Positions 12,596 to 20,159 of a DNA stretch of 47,124 nucleotides are shown piece after piece. Where the stretch lies: assembly GCA_007695115.1 (NCBI GenBank), contig REEK01000115.1, forward strand, positions 1 through 47,124, given 5' to 3'. The translations under genes were made by a program, and so were the position numbers. The stretch is from Sphaerobacteraceae bacterium (GTDB taxonomy: Bacteria > Chloroflexota > Chloroflexia > Thermomicrobiales > Thermomicrobiaceae). Each line of letters starts with the position of its first letter. Within the stretch, counting starts at the first letter, position 1. The notes beneath the pieces were generated by a model that was not told where the DNA came from, made no database searches, and saw only the letters and a program-made list of their open reading frames with translations.

Positions 12596-14539
12596 TCACG
12601 GGCCGTCGTTCTCGATATCAGCCGCCCGGGGAACGCTGAAGCAGAATCGAGACCCGCCATCCTCGGGAAGCTCCAGCCATAGCTGACCACCGTGCGCCTC
12701 AACGATCATTCGAGATAGATACAGTCCAAGCCCCATTCCAGCAGTGGTCTCTCTGTCCCGGCCACGATGGAAGCGGTCGAACAGGAGCGGAAGGTCATTC
12801 GGGTCCACGCCGCGTCCATAATCTCTGACGCTGATGATGATCATGCCGTCCATGGATTCGGCTTCGATGTCGATCGGGCTATCCCCAGGGACATATTTGA
12901 CTGCGTTCTGAACGAGGTTGCGCAGCACTTGATCGAGGCTATCGACATCTCCCGTCGCCAGCATGTTGCGCGTTTCACCGATCCGGATCTCGCGTTCAGC
13001 TTTCACCGCGTCAGTGCCACGGATCGCGCGCTGAATCAGAAGCCGGACATTTACCGGTTCTTCGTCGATCTTGAATCTGCCTGCCCGTATATTGGCCAGC
13101 TTAACCATGTTTTCGACCAGACTAGCCAGGCGCTTGCTCTCCGAGAAAATGTCATTGAGGATCTCTGCGCGGGTTTCCTCTTCGAGATCGAGTCCTGATT
13201 CCATGAGCAGATACGACCCGCCATGGATCGTGGTCAACGGAGTACGCAGCTCATGAGACACAAGTGAGAGGAAGTCGTCCTTGATCTGCTCCGCGTCCTT
13301 CAGAAGCGTGATGTCCTGGAAGACGAGCGCGGCTGCGCCGATCGATCCGTCAGCCTGACGCAGCGGGGCAGAGTTGACGAGTAACGTCAGCCGCTCCCCA
13401 TCTTCCCGCTCTAGCTGGATTTCGCTTCTGGCCACCGTTTCGCCATAGCGAAGTGACCGGACGATCGGAATCTCCTCGTTCGGGATCCGCTCCCCGTCGG
13501 GGGAATAGCGAGGGTTGCGATCAAGGAACTCCTGGAGTGGCAGCGAATCCGAAAGATCCCACCCGAGCAGGAGCGATGCCTGCCGATTGGCCATCGTGAC
13601 CCGTTCGGGATCGCTCTCAACAAGAACCACCGCCTCGGGGAGTTGATCGATGATGAACCGGAGCCGCTCTTGCTGGAATTCCAGCGACGAATACAGATGG
13701 GCATTCTCGATCGCCACCGCCGCATGTCGTGCGAGGAGCTCGACCAGGCGCTCATCTTCAGCGGTGAACTCGTTGGCAAAACGCTTCTCGGTAAGATAGA
13801 GGTTTCCGAGCACCCGGCCACGGGCGTTGATCGGCACCCCGAGAAAGCTCTTCATCGGTGGATGATTTGGTGGAAATCCGACTGACGATGGATGTTGGGA
13901 AAGATCACGGAGGCGCATCGATCGCTGTTCTCTGATCAACTCTCCCAGCAGGCCCTTGCCACGGGGCAATTCGCCGATTGCTGCGTGTTCGGCCGGTCCG
14001 ATTCCCGCAGTAATGAATGATTCAAGTTCACCGTGTATTCCCGGAACTCCGAGCGCCGCATAGCGGGCACCGGATACCGAACGAGCCAACTCGACGATCC
14101 GGTTCAAAACATTCTCGAGCGAATGCTCACCGGTAATCGCGACAATCGCCGAGCTCATCAACTCGAACTGACCGGAGACTTCCAGTCGCTCCCGCTTCTC
14201 GTCCTCAATCGCGGAGAGCCCGACCGCCGCGTTCTGGACTGCGGTGGCCAGACGGGCTTCGGCATCTGGTGTGAGAACCGGTACATCGGGATCATCCGAC
14301 GGAACATCCGCACGAACGTACGGCCCTGCCACGATGATTGCCGCCGTCTGATCGGAGAAGCGGCTTCCGAGGTAGAGACGATCACTGTATGTGAATGTCT
14401 GACTGACGCCGCGAATGCCGACCACTGTCTGAAGCGCACTCTGTTGGACCTCTGGCTCTAGCTCTCGCAGAGGCGCCACGTTCACCCCGGTCAACACAGT
14501 GATATTCCTCAGGAGTGGCTCGGCAGTAGCGTATGGCAT
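12596..14539 (-). CDS. Sensor histidine kinase, GAF-PAS-HisKA-HATPase, with DevS/DosS-like GAF
   Basis: A 647-residue soluble kinase with no membrane segment. An unrecognised N-terminal domain (1-115, perhaps PocR- or GAF-related) precedes a GAF domain (about 125-285), a PAS domain (about 290-415), HisKA with phospho-acceptor His429 (LVSHELRTP), and HATPase (N box LRNLVQNAVKY; GRGVDP; GMGLGLYLS). The GAF block from GLLGELI to GNLYLTEK closely resembles the heme GAF of mycobacterial DevS/DosS: His226 in FPPNHPPM aligns with the DevS heme ligand His149, and Tyr248 in GNLYLTE with Tyr171. Heme binding is inference. It starts three bases after the response-regulator stop, so the two form a cognate pair. 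Unlike DevS, it has HisKA and not HisKA_3. Confidence 0.92.
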   Translation of the reverse strand: MPYATAEPLLRNITVLTGVNVAPLRELEPEVQQSALQTVVGIRGVSQTFTYSDRLYLGSRFSDQTAAIIVAGPYVRADVPSDDPDVPVLTPDAEARLATAVQNAAVGLSAIEDEKRERLEVSGQFELMSSAIVAITGEHSLENVLNRIVELARSVSGARYAALGVPGIHGELESFITAGIGPAEHAAIGELPRGKGLLGELIREQRSMRLRDLSQHPSSVGFPPNHPPMKSFLGVPINARGRVLGNLYLTEKRFANEFTAEDERLVELLARHAAVAIENAHLYSSLEFQQERLRFIIDQLPEAVVLVESDPERVTMANRQASLLLGWDLSDSLPLQEFLDRNPRYSPDGERIPNEEIPIVRSLRYGETVARSEIQLEREDGERLTLLVNSAPLRQADGSIGAAALVFQDITLLKDAEQIKDDFLSLVSHELRTPLTTIHGGSYLLMESGLDLEEETRAEILNDIFSESKRLASLVENMVKLANIRAGRFKIDEEPVNVRLLIQRAIRGTDAVKAEREIRIGETRNMLATGDVDSLDQVLRNLVQNAVKYVPGDSPIDIEAESMDGMIIISVRDYGRGVDPNDLPLLFDRFHRGRDRETTAGMGLGLYLSRMIVEAHGGQLWLELPEDGGSRFCFSVPRAADIENDGP

Positions 14540-14542
14540 CGA

Positions 14543-15244
14543 CTACTCCCCGTCTTGCGGCGGTTCCAGGCGATAGCCCATGCCGGGAAAGGTCTTGATG
14601 AGTGTCGGGTGTTCCCGGTTCTCTTCGAGTTTGGCTCGGAGTCGACTCACCCAGGTTCTCAGGTAGTACGTTTCGTCCCGGAACTCTGGTCCCCATATTC
14701 GCGATAGCAGCTCGGTGTGGAGCATTACGCGCCCAGCATTGCTGGCAAGTTGATACAGGAGTTCCCACTCAGTGCGACTGAGTTCGACTTCCTGGCCATT
14801 GTTCATGATCTGCCGGCGGCTGAGATCGATCGTCAATCGTCCGTAGTCGAGAAGTTGCGAGGATGCCGGCTGACTTCCAGAAGCCCGTCGCAGAACCGCG
14901 GAAATGCGGGCCGATAGCTCATCTGGATTGAATGGTTTGGTGACATAATCGTCGGCTCCAAGGTCGAGCCCCCGAATCTTCTCCGGCGCAGCTGAGCGCG
15001 CGGTGAGAATGACCACCGGAACATTGGCGGACTGTCGGATTTGCTGCATGGCGTCATAGCCATCCATAACCGGCATCATCAGGTCGAGAACCACGATGTC
15101 AGGACGCTCTCGTTCGAAGAGTTCGACGGCTTCTTTACCGTTCATGGCCGTGATCACACCGTAGCCGTCAGCTTGCAGCTTGGTTCTGACAAGTCTGAGA
15201 ATCGGAGCGTCGTCGTCCGCAACGAGCACCAGCTGTTTTCGCAT
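14543..15244 (-). CDS. OmpR/PhoB-family response regulator
   Basis: A 233-residue regulator. The receiver has an acidic cluster at 10-12, phospho-acceptor Asp54 (VLDLMMPVMDG), Thr81 and Lys103 (VTKPF). The C-terminal winged helix (about 130-228) ends with the typical RTWVSRLRAKLEE and GMGYRLEPP. GAGGGGGTGG precedes the ATG. The kinase follows three bases after its stop. The upstream intergenic region contains two inverted repeats, which are candidate binding sites for this regulator or others. The likely output is control of its own operon and of the divergent usp gene. Confidence 0.94.
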   Translation of the reverse strand: MRKQLVLVADDDAPILRLVRTKLQADGYGVITAMNGKEAVELFERERPDIVVLDLMMPVMDGYDAMQQIRQSANVPVVILTARSAAPEKIRGLDLGADDYVTKPFNPDELSARISAVLRRASGSQPASSQLLDYGRLTIDLSRRQIMNNGQEVELSRTEWELLYQLASNAGRVMLHTELLSRIWGPEFRDETYYLRTWVSRLRAKLEENREHPTLIKTFPGMGYRLEPPQDGE

Positions 15245-16506: not shown

Positions 16507-16716
16507 TCATGACTCGCGGTCGTTCAACCATTTCAAGACTTCCGACCGTTCGAAGCGTACGATGTCGTTTCCGACCTTGACCGCCCGCAGATTGCCTTTC
16601 CAGACCTCATTGAACAGAAATGATTCTGTGGTGCCGAGAAGGCGTGCCAGTTCTCGAGGCTGGAAGGCACTCTGGCGAAGGAGTTCTTCTGCGCGTCTGT
16701 AGGTAACCTTTACCAT
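16507..16716 (-). CDS. Small helix-turn-helix DNA-binding protein (excisionase/MerR-type HTH)
   Basis: A 69-residue protein. The segment FQPRELARLLGTTESFLFNEVWKG is not quoted in full here but covers residues 17-40 and is a winged HTH of the helix_turn_helix_17/excisionase type, followed by a wing and RFERSEVLKWLN. I chose the ATG at 16716 because AGGAGG lies seven bases upstream; a longer frame to 16857 would overlap the preceding gene and has no site. It follows the GGDEF protein by about 100 bases on the same strand. No phage or integrase gene is nearby, so it is more likely a small transcription factor than an excisionase. Confidence 0.75.
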   Translation of the reverse strand: MVKVTYRRAEELLRQSAFQPRELARLLGTTESFLFNEVWKGNLRAVKVGNDIVRFERSEVLKWLNDRES

Positions 16717-16816: not shown

Positions 16817-18991
16817 TCAATAAGCAGTTCGCTTGTCGAGGTCGAATACATGGTCAATGCTGAAGTCGAGGAGTTCGCCTGCGGTGAGTGGTCTCGAGAA
16901 CAACGGTCCAGATCCGAAATCGAACCCGAGATCGCGAATCATACGGAGTTCTTCAGCGGTGCGGATGCCTGGTGCCTTGGCGGGGAGATCGAAGACTTGC
17001 GCCGTGGCAACCACGGATCGCAAGAGTGTGTGCGCTCGACGATCCGTCAACGCACTATTGACCAGATCTGTAGAGGCCACGATTGCCTCGACCGGAAGAT
17101 GTCGCAACAACCCGGTATCACCTTCGTAGCCGCCAAATTCAGCAATCGAAAACTGTATCCCCTCTTCGTAGAGGCGAATCAGACGACTCAAGGTGGAATC
17201 GTCGTCTGGCAAGATTCGTCCGGAGAGTTCGATCCAGACGGAGATTGGAGTCCCTCTCACGTCTCTGGCGATCTGTGCGAGTTGATCGATTACCCGATTT
17301 TCACGGAGATACTCGATCCAGTAATGGCGAGACAACACAATGCCTGTGCGATTCCCGATCGCCTCCAGCATGAGCGGGCGGTCACGCTCGCCAAGTTCAG
17401 CCGCGTGCTCGGCTATTTCGTGGAGGACACCGGCTCGCCAGGCACGTGACCGGATTTCGTGGTCATCGAGAAGCCCCTCTGTCGCGCTGCGCCAGAACAT
17501 GGCGATTTCTACTTCTCGGACATTGCCAATCCGAAGATCGACCACTGGCCGGTAGAGCATTTCGAACTGCTCAGTATCGAGTGCGTGGCGAATTTCCTCG
17601 ATGAGGCTGCGAGGTGCCCTCCCGTCGGGACGGTGGGAGTCGTGAAAATACGCCCATCGGGAGGTGCCTGCGGCTTTGGCTTCGTACATCGCGATGTCAG
17701 CTCGTCGAATCGCCTCTGAGGTGGTGATGGCTTCATCCCCATCGAGAACGCTGACACCGACACTGCCGGGCAGCCTGATCGCTTGACCGGCCACTTCCAT
17801 CGGTTCATTCAGAGCGTCGAGGATTCGTCGAACGACCTGCTCGACCTGGCCAAGATCAGTTGTTGGATAGAGAAGGACAGCGAACTCGTCGCCGCCGATT
17901 CGGGCAATGGCGTCGGTATCGCGGACCGATGAACGGATTCTGGCGCCGGCTTCGATAATGGCCATGTCACCAGTATCGTGTCCGAGGTTGTCGTTGATTG
18001 CTTTAAATCCATCCAGATCGATATAGAGGATGGTGAGGGCTGCGTTTCTCGACTTGCTGTCACCTATCGCGTGTTCAACGTTGTCGGCAAAGCTGCGGCG
18101 ATTGCCCAACCCGGTGAGTGGATCGAGCAGTGCCTGTCTCTCGAGAGAGTCCTGCAGCTGCACGTGTTCGGTGACATCAACGATCGACATCGCCGATCCT
18201 ACGACTTCTTGCAACTCATCGAGAACCGGGCTGGCAGTGACCTGCACGAAGATCGGTTTGGCGTCCAGGTTTTCGAACTGAATGATATAGTCGTCCGGCC
18301 CTTCATCGACCCGGGACTCCATCGAGCGATAGAGGGGCAGATCAGTTGAGGAGACCGGCTCAAAGTCAGTCGACCAGATTGGCAGCTCCTCTATGCACTC
18401 GGGAGCCTTCGCAAGATTCCACAATTCCTGGATGCGGAGATTCGTCATCTGTATCTCGCCGCTTGTGTCGTTCACGATCACGATTCCCTCGGGTAGTTGA
18501 TCGATCAATGACACGAGCCGTCGGCGCTCAGTCTCCAGTTCTCGACTCAGTGCTGTCAGAAGGTAGCCGTGTTGCTGGAGTTCGCTCTGCTGTTTCGACG
18601 TTTCTCGTTGAAGATTGGCGAATTCAGCCAGCAAGGCCGAGAGTTGCTCGAATCTTGATTCATCATCGTCATCTTCCCGGGCCATGACGATGATTGCATT
18701 ATCGTAGCGAAAGATATGTACAGAACAGAGGACCGGTCGGTTTTCGACGACGAAAACCAGCTCAGTGACGAGGTCACTTCCTTCCCGAACCTTAAACAGA
18801 CTGGATGCGAGTTTGTTGAGGCTACCGGGATCGAGAACGGTCTCGATAGGCACGCCGACCAACAGCCCCAGCCGTTCTGTGGCGTGACTGTTGCACCATG
18901 ACGTGACTCCTTGCGAGTCCAGTGCAATGGTTATCTCCGGAATCTGACCAAGAAACTTCTCGAACGCCGCTGTCGTGATTTCAGTAGACAT
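16817..18991 (-). CDS. PAS-PAS-GGDEF-EAL protein: diguanylate cyclase with degenerate EAL domain
   Basis: A 724-residue cytoplasmic signalling protein. Two PAS-like domains (about 8-105 and 155-280) flank a coiled-coil stretch (110-160). The GGDEF domain (about 285-445) has an intact GGDEF at 366-370 and an inhibitory RxxD site (RDTD, 357-360) five residues upstream, so it should make c-di-GMP under product control. The C-terminal domain has the EAL fold (MLYRPVVDLRIGNV) but the signature is EIA (495-497), the metal-binding DDFG is AEFG, and the later KxD and EGVE motifs are missing, so phosphodiesterase activity is unlikely. The ATG at 18991 has GAGGAA; a TTG four codons earlier overlaps that site. 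It follows the B12-domain gene by 88 bases. Confidence 0.92.
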   Translation of the reverse strand: MSTEITTAAFEKFLGQIPEITIALDSQGVTSWCNSHATERLGLLVGVPIETVLDPGSLNKLASSLFKVREGSDLVTELVFVVENRPVLCSVHIFRYDNAIIVMAREDDDDESRFEQLSALLAEFANLQRETSKQQSELQQHGYLLTALSRELETERRRLVSLIDQLPEGIVIVNDTSGEIQMTNLRIQELWNLAKAPECIEELPIWSTDFEPVSSTDLPLYRSMESRVDEGPDDYIIQFENLDAKPIFVQVTASPVLDELQEVVGSAMSIVDVTEHVQLQDSLERQALLDPLTGLGNRRSFADNVEHAIGDSKSRNAALTILYIDLDGFKAINDNLGHDTGDMAIIEAGARIRSSVRDTDAIARIGGDEFAVLLYPTTDLGQVEQVVRRILDALNEPMEVAGQAIRLPGSVGVSVLDGDEAITTSEAIRRADIAMYEAKAAGTSRWAYFHDSHRPDGRAPRSLIEEIRHALDTEQFEMLYRPVVDLRIGNVREVEIAMFWRSATEGLLDDHEIRSRAWRAGVLHEIAEHAAELGERDRPLMLEAIGNRTGIVLSRHYWIEYLRENRVIDQLAQIARDVRGTPISVWIELSGRILPDDDSTLSRLIRLYEEGIQFSIAEFGGYEGDTGLLRHLPVEAIVASTDLVNSALTDRRAHTLLRSVVATAQVFDLPAKAPGIRTAEELRMIRDLGFDFGSGPLFSRPLTAGELLDFSIDHVFDLDKRTAY

Positions 18992-19079
18992 GTTTCCTCG
19001 CAAGCTTCAGGATAATCCGCAATTCTCATGCTGTGCAAAATGGGGTGGGGCCGGCAGCACGAATCGCAGTACTGCGCGT

Positions 19080-19829
19080 TCAGTCTCTCACCTCGGCATC
19101 TCTGCGCCGATTCAGCACCTGGCGCGAGATTTCCACCAACTGGCGAGCATCACTGGCACGGACCTCGATATTGAGTTCATCGAGGAGCTCCGGTGTCAAG
19201 TCGAATGCCTGTCCTCCAGCAGCGATCAGCACCTCGTCTCCAAAAGACTGTCGAAGTGCGTCAACTGTGGCCCGAAACGACGGAAGGTTGTAGGTCATCG
19301 TTGCCGACAATGCGACGAGGTCCGGTGTCCAGCGGGAAACCGCATCAACGATCTCCTTCACGGGCACGTCTGCCCCGAGGTAGCGAACATCGAACCCGGA
19401 CATTTCGAAGAAGTCGGCCAGAATCCTCGGTCCCATATCGTGTGTCTCCCCGGGAACACACGTTATCAGAACACTGAAGCCTGACGATTCGTTCCGTGGC
19501 ATCATCGAGTAGAGGTGGGCGATTGCCAGTTGAGATATTCCAGTCGCCAAATGCTCCTGTGCAACGCTGACTTTGCCCTCCACCCAGAGCTTACCGATCT
19601 CATATTGCGTGGCCTGGATGACCCCGAGATAGATCTGGCCAACTGAAAGACCTGCAGCCGGACCCGCTTCGCCAATCACTTTGAGTGCGACGGTGCGATC
19701 TCCCCGAAGCGCGGCGTCCATATACGCCTGTGCTACGCGCTCCAGCGGGCTGAAATCACAGTCGTTGCTCGACACCATGGACGAAGACGTGAAATTGGCA
19801 GGATCTGTTGGGTAATCGTGAGCCATCAT
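19080..19829 (-). CDS. Stand-alone cobalamin-binding photosensor-like protein (CarH-type B12 domain)
   Basis: A 249-residue protein with a helical cap (about 28-110) and a B12-binding Rossmann domain (about 117-240). The cap carries Trp82-x9-Glu92-His93, the W-x9-EH motif of CarH-type adenosylcobalamin photoreceptors. The Rossmann domain has GETHDMG, whose His130 should be the lower axial cobalt ligand. There is no MerR-type DNA-binding domain; the first 27 residues look disordered. The residue after Trp82 is Val, whereas CarH has His132, the ligand in its light state. Two adjacent ATGs are possible (19829, 19826), neither with a strong site. As the first gene before a GGDEF protein, it may feed light or cobalamin status into c-di-GMP signalling; this is inference. 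Confidence 0.88.
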   Translation of the reverse strand: MMAHDYPTDPANFTSSSMVSSNDCDFSPLERVAQAYMDAALRGDRTVALKVIGEAGPAAGLSVGQIYLGVIQATQYEIGKLWVEGKVSVAQEHLATGISQLAIAHLYSMMPRNESSGFSVLITCVPGETHDMGPRILADFFEMSGFDVRYLGADVPVKEIVDAVSRWTPDLVALSATMTYNLPSFRATVDALRQSFGDEVLIAAGGQAFDLTPELLDELNIEVRASDARQLVEISRQVLNRRRDAEVRD

Positions 19830-20159
19830 AGTGAAACCAACCCTGTATTCTCGAGCGGACTGGCGATTGACGTGCCCCGCGTGCGTTCAATTCTCAGGAT
19901 TGTGATCAGCTCTGATCGATCCTGTCTCCTGGTGCCGGCGGGTCTGGCAACAACATTCTGACTTGATCGAAGAGTGTGATCAGACAAATCGAGTTCAAAG
20001 AACCTGCGAGCGGGCCCGCGTACTTCGAGGGACAAAAAAGCCCGCGGAAGACGCGAACCACAGGATTTATTCTCACTCGATTATACGCTGTTGCAGCCCC
20101 ATCGGATAGAGACTCCACCCGTGACCAAAGGGGCATATGCATCCCGAAACCGGCTGAAA
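19830..20159. other. Intergenic region upstream of the B12-domain gene
   Basis: About 330 bases between two minus-strand genes. It contains the terminator of the glycosyltransferase gene (20034-20058). The remainder should include the promoter of the B12/GGDEF/HTH run, but I see no consensus-quality boxes. Confidence 0.5.
20034..20058 (-). terminator. Rho-independent terminator of glycosyltransferase gene
   Basis: On the minus strand GUUCGCG-UCUUC-CGCGGGC forms a 7-bp stem (two G-U pairs) followed by six U residues. It lies about 100 bases beyond the glycosyltransferase stop. Confidence 0.75.

Follow-up and report, generated by a model that had tools for sequence, protein, structure and literature searches.

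In this study, we have explored a stretch of 47,124 nucleotides from a Sphaerobacteraceae bacterium (contig REEK01000115.1, positions 1 to 47,124, called the window below), in which a stand-alone cobalamin-binding protein is encoded next to a candidate output partner. The sensor gene, an open reading frame of 249 amino acids at 19080..19829, is read on the minus strand (19829→19080); read on the plus strand, the same interval is not a gene. Its initial Met-Met pair is kept in the orthologues. The protein comprises a disordered N-terminal tail (residues 1-25), a four-helix cap (28-107) and a Rossmann B12 domain (119-248), and because two Pfam domains match, B12-binding_2 on the cap (33-106, E 3.5e-11) and B12-binding (119-218, E 3.2e-23), the assignment reflects homology and not a chance motif. 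The AlphaFold2 model (pLDDT 92, pTM 0.85) has the CarH-like fold of cap plus Rossmann domain, and a Foldseek search with it returned SasPcob, CtMerR and AbPcob at the top with CarH after them (8j2w, 8jbs, 5c8d). A sequence-only reading of this DNA had claimed that the protein has no DNA-binding domain, and the domain search bears this out: Pfam found no helix-turn-helix (HTH) in the 249 residues, such as the N-terminal MerR HTH of CarH, and the TransRegCarH score was 64.8 against a cut-off of 400. A fused globin-like biliverdin-binding domain is likewise absent, with no further domain detected by Pfam or in the model. Judging from a comparison with a 95%-identical orthologue (dN 0.022, dS 0.094), the gene is under purifying selection.

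The light-response signature published for cobalamin-binding domains (SignatureFinder) consists of GxxW, EH, GxxH and GxxxP (PMC11796333), and all four parts are present in the sensor as G79xxW82, E92H93, G127xxH130 and G152xxxP156. Of the solved structures, CtMerR (8JBS) matches the sensor best in sequence; over a gap-free stretch, residue n of the sensor corresponds to n+74, so that W82, V83, E92, H93 and H130 fall on W156, R157, E166, H167 and H204. In CtMerR, W156, E166, H167 and H204 are the adenosyl pocket and the axial ligand described with that structure (PMC11796333). The sequence-only reading had named Trp82-x9-Glu92-His93 and the axial-His motif GETHDMG as marks of the CarH group, and had allowed that the Trp and Glu-His might prove to lie elsewhere than in the cofactor pocket. 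The alignment puts them inside it, the numbering was right (GETHDMG spans residues 127-133, with H130 as its His), and the pocket is complete and identical across all four same-genus orthologues. The genome also encodes both PduO- and CobO-type adenosyltransferases, which count in favour of a supply of adenosylcobalamin to the sensor. By its residues, then, the protein carries in full the B12 light-sensing pocket known from CarH and the photocobilins, without an output domain, and we infer that it binds the cofactor and responds to light. The NCBIfam corrinoid-protein models also match it, below their cut-off, as would be expected if it were an ordinary methyl carrier like MtaC, MtbC or MetH. 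But the features of MtaC and MtbC (DxHDIG without W-x9-EH, and a methyltransferase context) were not found: the sensor has W-x9-EH, and ExH in place of DxHDIG, none of the neighbours examined was identified as a methyltransferase, and the ordinary corrinoid proteins form a separate clade (100/100) in our tree, on a branch 1.6 long. We rejected this explanation as hardly credible.

The same tree joins the window clade (100/98) to paralogues from the same genus (L026-L029) as its sister group (99/93). At two of these loci (L028, 4679-7188; L029, 1408-3710), the gene for the cobalamin-binding domain (CBD) is followed by those for a BBAG-2-like globin with an RGMC motif, an ABM-type monooxygenase and a ferredoxin-dependent bilin reductase, the ABM gene standing where a heme oxygenase might be expected. 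Pre-2/BBAG-2 clusters of that layout were described by Rockwell and colleagues and are largely confined to delta-proteobacteria (PMC10151467). They resemble the window in having a stand-alone B12-binding protein beside signalling or bilin genes, and the sister paralogues lie in clusters of this type, whereas the window copy has no adjacent globin or bilin reductase. The context of L028 and L029 does raise the idea that the sensor is one half of a split photocobilin, which would require a separate bilin-binding globin; this is largely refuted for the present genome, and we consider it very improbable, as no homologue of the L028/L029-type globin was found in the 98.5%-complete window genome, nor in the neighbourhood. 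The sensor should therefore work with cobalamin alone.

In CarH, the His that follows the Trp takes over the cobalt in the light. The sensor has Val83 at this position, which in TtCarH is His132, and since Val replaces the cobalt-capturing residue, no bis-His light state is expected. The sequence-only reading had seen in this Val a possible sign of altered photochemistry. The difference from CarH is real, but it is not special: among 86 W-motif domains from Chloroflexota, the residue after the Trp is A, H, E, Q, Y, V, L or others, with His in just 16 cases, and it is Glu in two orthologues of the sensor and Gln in the C-terminal-globin photocobilins. As the position varies and a residue other than His is usual, we do not regard Val83 as a meaningful novelty. 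Three proteins that lack this His, CtMerR (Arg), SasPcob (Gln) and AbDPcob (Tyr), are photoactive and form aquo/hydroxocobalamin with no bis-His ligation (PMC11796333). The photochemistry of the sensor is thus likely to be altered relative to CarH, as a variant that has already been described.

The gene that follows on the same strand starts 77 bp downstream and encodes a product of 728 amino acids (16817..19003, minus strand; the frame opens with TTG at 19003, and ATG at 18991 is the more probable start). Domain search, orthologue comparison and predicted structure outline a PAS1 domain (24-109), a helix (115-168), a PAS2 domain (173-276), a GGDEF domain and a degenerate EAL domain. The helix, of 54 residues, sits between the two PAS folds in the predicted structure, from which, at an overall pTM of 0.35, the local structure alone was used. 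Its GGDEF motif is intact, as is its RxxD inhibitory site (three orthologues). Neither the canonical DDFG nor the TE motif is present in the EAL domain, whose degeneracy rests on motifs known from the family and not on an alignment. A scan by consensus alone placed a terminator-like hairpin with a T-run (20039..20059, minus strand) in the gap that separates the B12 gene from the glycosyltransferase gene upstream; this hairpin suggests that the B12 gene begins its own transcript. It had been claimed from the letters that the output must go through a partner, and a concrete candidate now stands beside the sensor gene: the partner is very probably this next gene (16817–19003). The two genes are paired in each of the four same-genus genomes with the sensor gene; synteny with the three other genomes of the genus spans the entire neighbourhood, however, and the conservation of the pair is therefore not independent evidence. 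The case for a specific pair is weakened by some 15 other GGDEF genes in the genome. No PilZ receptors were found in the sensor's own genome.

A third co-directional gene (16510..16716, minus strand), preceded by an AGGAGG ribosome site, encodes an HTH_17/excisionase-like protein of 69 amino acids, possibly a DNA-binding output. If the output were transcription, through this small protein or an unlinked regulator, in the way that AerR acts with CrtJ, one could understand why the HTH gene runs in the same direction and has a strong ribosome site, why its product is more conserved among orthologues (74-80% identity) than the cyclase (49-57%), and why a CBD-only gene elsewhere (L095) overlaps a MerR-PAS gene. 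We nevertheless find such an output improbable, since CBD genes outside the genus were not found to have a small HTH gene of this kind next to them, and the shared module described below sits on the cyclase. Further along the same strand (window 12596-15244) lie a GAF-PAS histidine kinase and an OmpR-type response regulator, the latter 91-93% identical genus-wide, far above its surroundings.

From a survey of 400 Chloroflexota genomes, we sampled about 80 B12-domain genes with their neighbourhoods and counted as adjacent any co-directional output, helix-module or globin gene immediately beside the B12 gene. Such a neighbour accompanies 10 of the 14 proteins made of the B12 domain only (CBD-only) and all 12 of those with an N-terminal globin (globin-CBD), that is, 22 of 26 for these two light-type groups together; it accompanies one MerR-fused protein in 42, and none of the C-terminal-globin proteins (0/11) or the ordinary corrinoid proteins (0/6). 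With the window clade and the module-only matches removed, the comparison is 13/22 against 1/42 for the MerR-fused proteins (Fisher p 4e-7, a guide only, as this is a post hoc test on rows that share ancestry). The four CBD-only negatives include L026 and L027, which lie at contig edges, and L095, where the overlapping MerR-PAS gene was outside the query set. This last locus (L095, 6149-7446), with its MerR-HTH plus PAS gene, resembles a CarH split in two proteins.

Several other loci deserve mention in their own right. CBD-only genes adjoin PAS-helix-STAS genes at L063 (4182-6144), L067 (1211-3264) and L073 (4542-6259), with an additional short PAS-helix gene without output at the first two, and these may be stressosome-like B12 modules. 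At L077 (5709-8413), the gene directly after that of a globin-CBD photocobilin encodes a histidine kinase that combines the PAS-helix module with an ABM domain at its N-terminus; domains of the ABM type are met repeatedly around B12/bilin sensors. At L084 (6794-7120) and L085 (5736-6104), photocobilin genes overlap a small gene with the helix motif and a Cys-rich tail (CxxCKN...CPxC), which matched no Pfam family. Finally, an AT-rich contig in a same-genus MAG (L030, G003:C494) bears a Bacillota-like photocobilin and PAS-GGDEF pair, and is probably contamination.

Whatever their output (GGDEF, STAS, histidine kinase or none), the partners that adjoin B12 genes have a PAS domain and then a helix at their start. 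On the window, this PAS1 + helix module is encoded at 18524..19003 (minus strand) and, being common by hhalign and whole-genome searches to genes beside free-standing B12 sensors, is a candidate docking site. With hhalign, the window module scored 96% over 136 columns against the merged profile of the partners; unrelated PAS controls from the same neighbourhoods mostly stayed under 30%, none exceeding 28% with the window profile or 37% with the STAS/short-module profile, and they aligned over short stretches. When the module profile was run on the 400 whole genomes, all 16 matches of at least 42 bits adjoined a B12 gene; 13 of these were in the model or equivalent to sequences in it, and the three top matches outside it were L087, L077 and L078. 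The next match, at 41.6 bits, is not adjacent to a B12 gene. A single simple coil motif was rejected as the common feature, its regular expression having found three proteins only, two of which were the window protein and a near-identical orthologue; the PAS+helix profile with controls was used in its place.

Stand-alone B12 sensors that act through partners are already known, AerR being one and SasPcob, which acts on a cyclase in trans, another. The closest known arrangement is that of AerR–CrtJ and AppA-SCHIC–PpsR, in which the linker of a PAS–helix–PAS protein receives a B12-type domain. The free-standing AerR of R. capsulatus binds B12 but not DNA and shares a transcript with CrtJ; AppA contacts PpsR through its B12-fold SCHIC domain, which docks on the helix between the N-terminal PAS and PAS1 of PpsR (PMC9144470). 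The window pair has the same layout, in that a stand-alone B12-fold protein and a PAS-helix-PAS partner are encoded together, but there are clear differences: the output of the partner is GGDEF with degenerate EAL and not HTH, the phylum is another, and the pocket is the W-x9-EH one of CarH. In a blind PDB search with a wide module profile, PpsR (4hh2) came first (whole-chain E 1.6e-5), but none of its domains was significant by itself (best single-domain i-Evalue 2.4). It was not recovered with the narrower profile, TIGR02040 was not matched (NCBIfam), and a fold search with the partner did not list PpsR in its top 50. As the per-domain score was weak and not reproduced in the further searches, we did not retain PpsR homology and kept it as an analogy; the partner module shares the arrangement of PpsR, with homology weakly indicated. 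The photocobilins SasPcob and AbDPcob (8J2W/8J2X/8J2Y) are like the sensor in that they are its closest PDB folds, with the same pocket and no bis-His light state, and like the proposed pair in that a separate photocobilin protein switches a diguanylate cyclase in trans; unlike them, the sensor has no globin/biliverdin domain, and its cyclase is a separate PAS-PAS-GGDEF-EAL protein, with degenerate EAL, encoded by the next gene. CarH/LitR (AdoCbl class) share with the sensor the pocket W, E and H and the axial His, but not the lack of a MerR HTH or of a His after the Trp.

Based on our results, we think it rather probable that the sensor is the light-sensing subunit of a two-protein B12 photoreceptor that acts on the PAS-PAS-GGDEF cyclase with degenerate EAL. 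The sensor would bind adenosylcobalamin base-off, with His130 as lower ligand, and the adenosyl group would stack against Trp82 and be kept in place by Glu92-His93. Green or blue light would cleave the Co-C bond, and the Val83 sensor would settle as aquo/hydroxocobalamin with a moderate movement of the cap, in the manner of SasPcob and CtMerR and not of the bis-His CarH. This movement would alter the docking of the sensor on PAS1 and the helix (115-168) of the co-encoded protein, which we liken to that of the AppA B12-fold domain on the PpsR linker helix, and the change in docking would switch c-di-GMP synthesis. Such a mechanism is chemically precedented, since photocobilins activate a diguanylate cyclase in trans on illumination (PMC10979010). 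Here, we infer the formation of the sensor-cyclase complex, light as its signal and the sign of the effect. The same pair could instead report cobalamin availability or redox state, any bound cobalamin, as opposed to the apo form, altering how the sensor docks on the cyclase's PAS-helix. In favour of this reading, the bacterium probably comes from soda-lake sediment, a setting in which little light may be available, and SAerR binds several cobalamins irrespective of light (PMC9144470). Against this, the Trp, Glu-His and GxxxP of the adenosyl pocket are all conserved, and the signature-bearing proteins tested to date respond to light (PMC11796333), which leaves a signal other than light unlikely, albeit as the main alternative.

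More broadly, we propose as a tentative generalization that the free-standing B12 photosensors of Chloroflexota may be a general two-protein class, evolutionarily linked to AerR-CrtJ/AppA-PpsR, with a shared PAS + helix docking module and interchangeable outputs (GGDEF, GGDEF-EAL, STAS, histidine kinases or the module alone), of which the window pair would be the GGDEF-EAL version. If this is true, B12 light sensing would be modular between proteins and not just between fused domains, and a recognisable docking module could allow one type of sensor to act on c-di-GMP, kinase, STAS or transcriptional outputs, which would provide a sequence rule for finding the partners of orphan B12 sensors. 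The window protein would in turn offer a natural bilin-free and globin-free minimal case in which to compare photochemistry without the bis-His state, as well as a dissociable green-light part for optogenetics.
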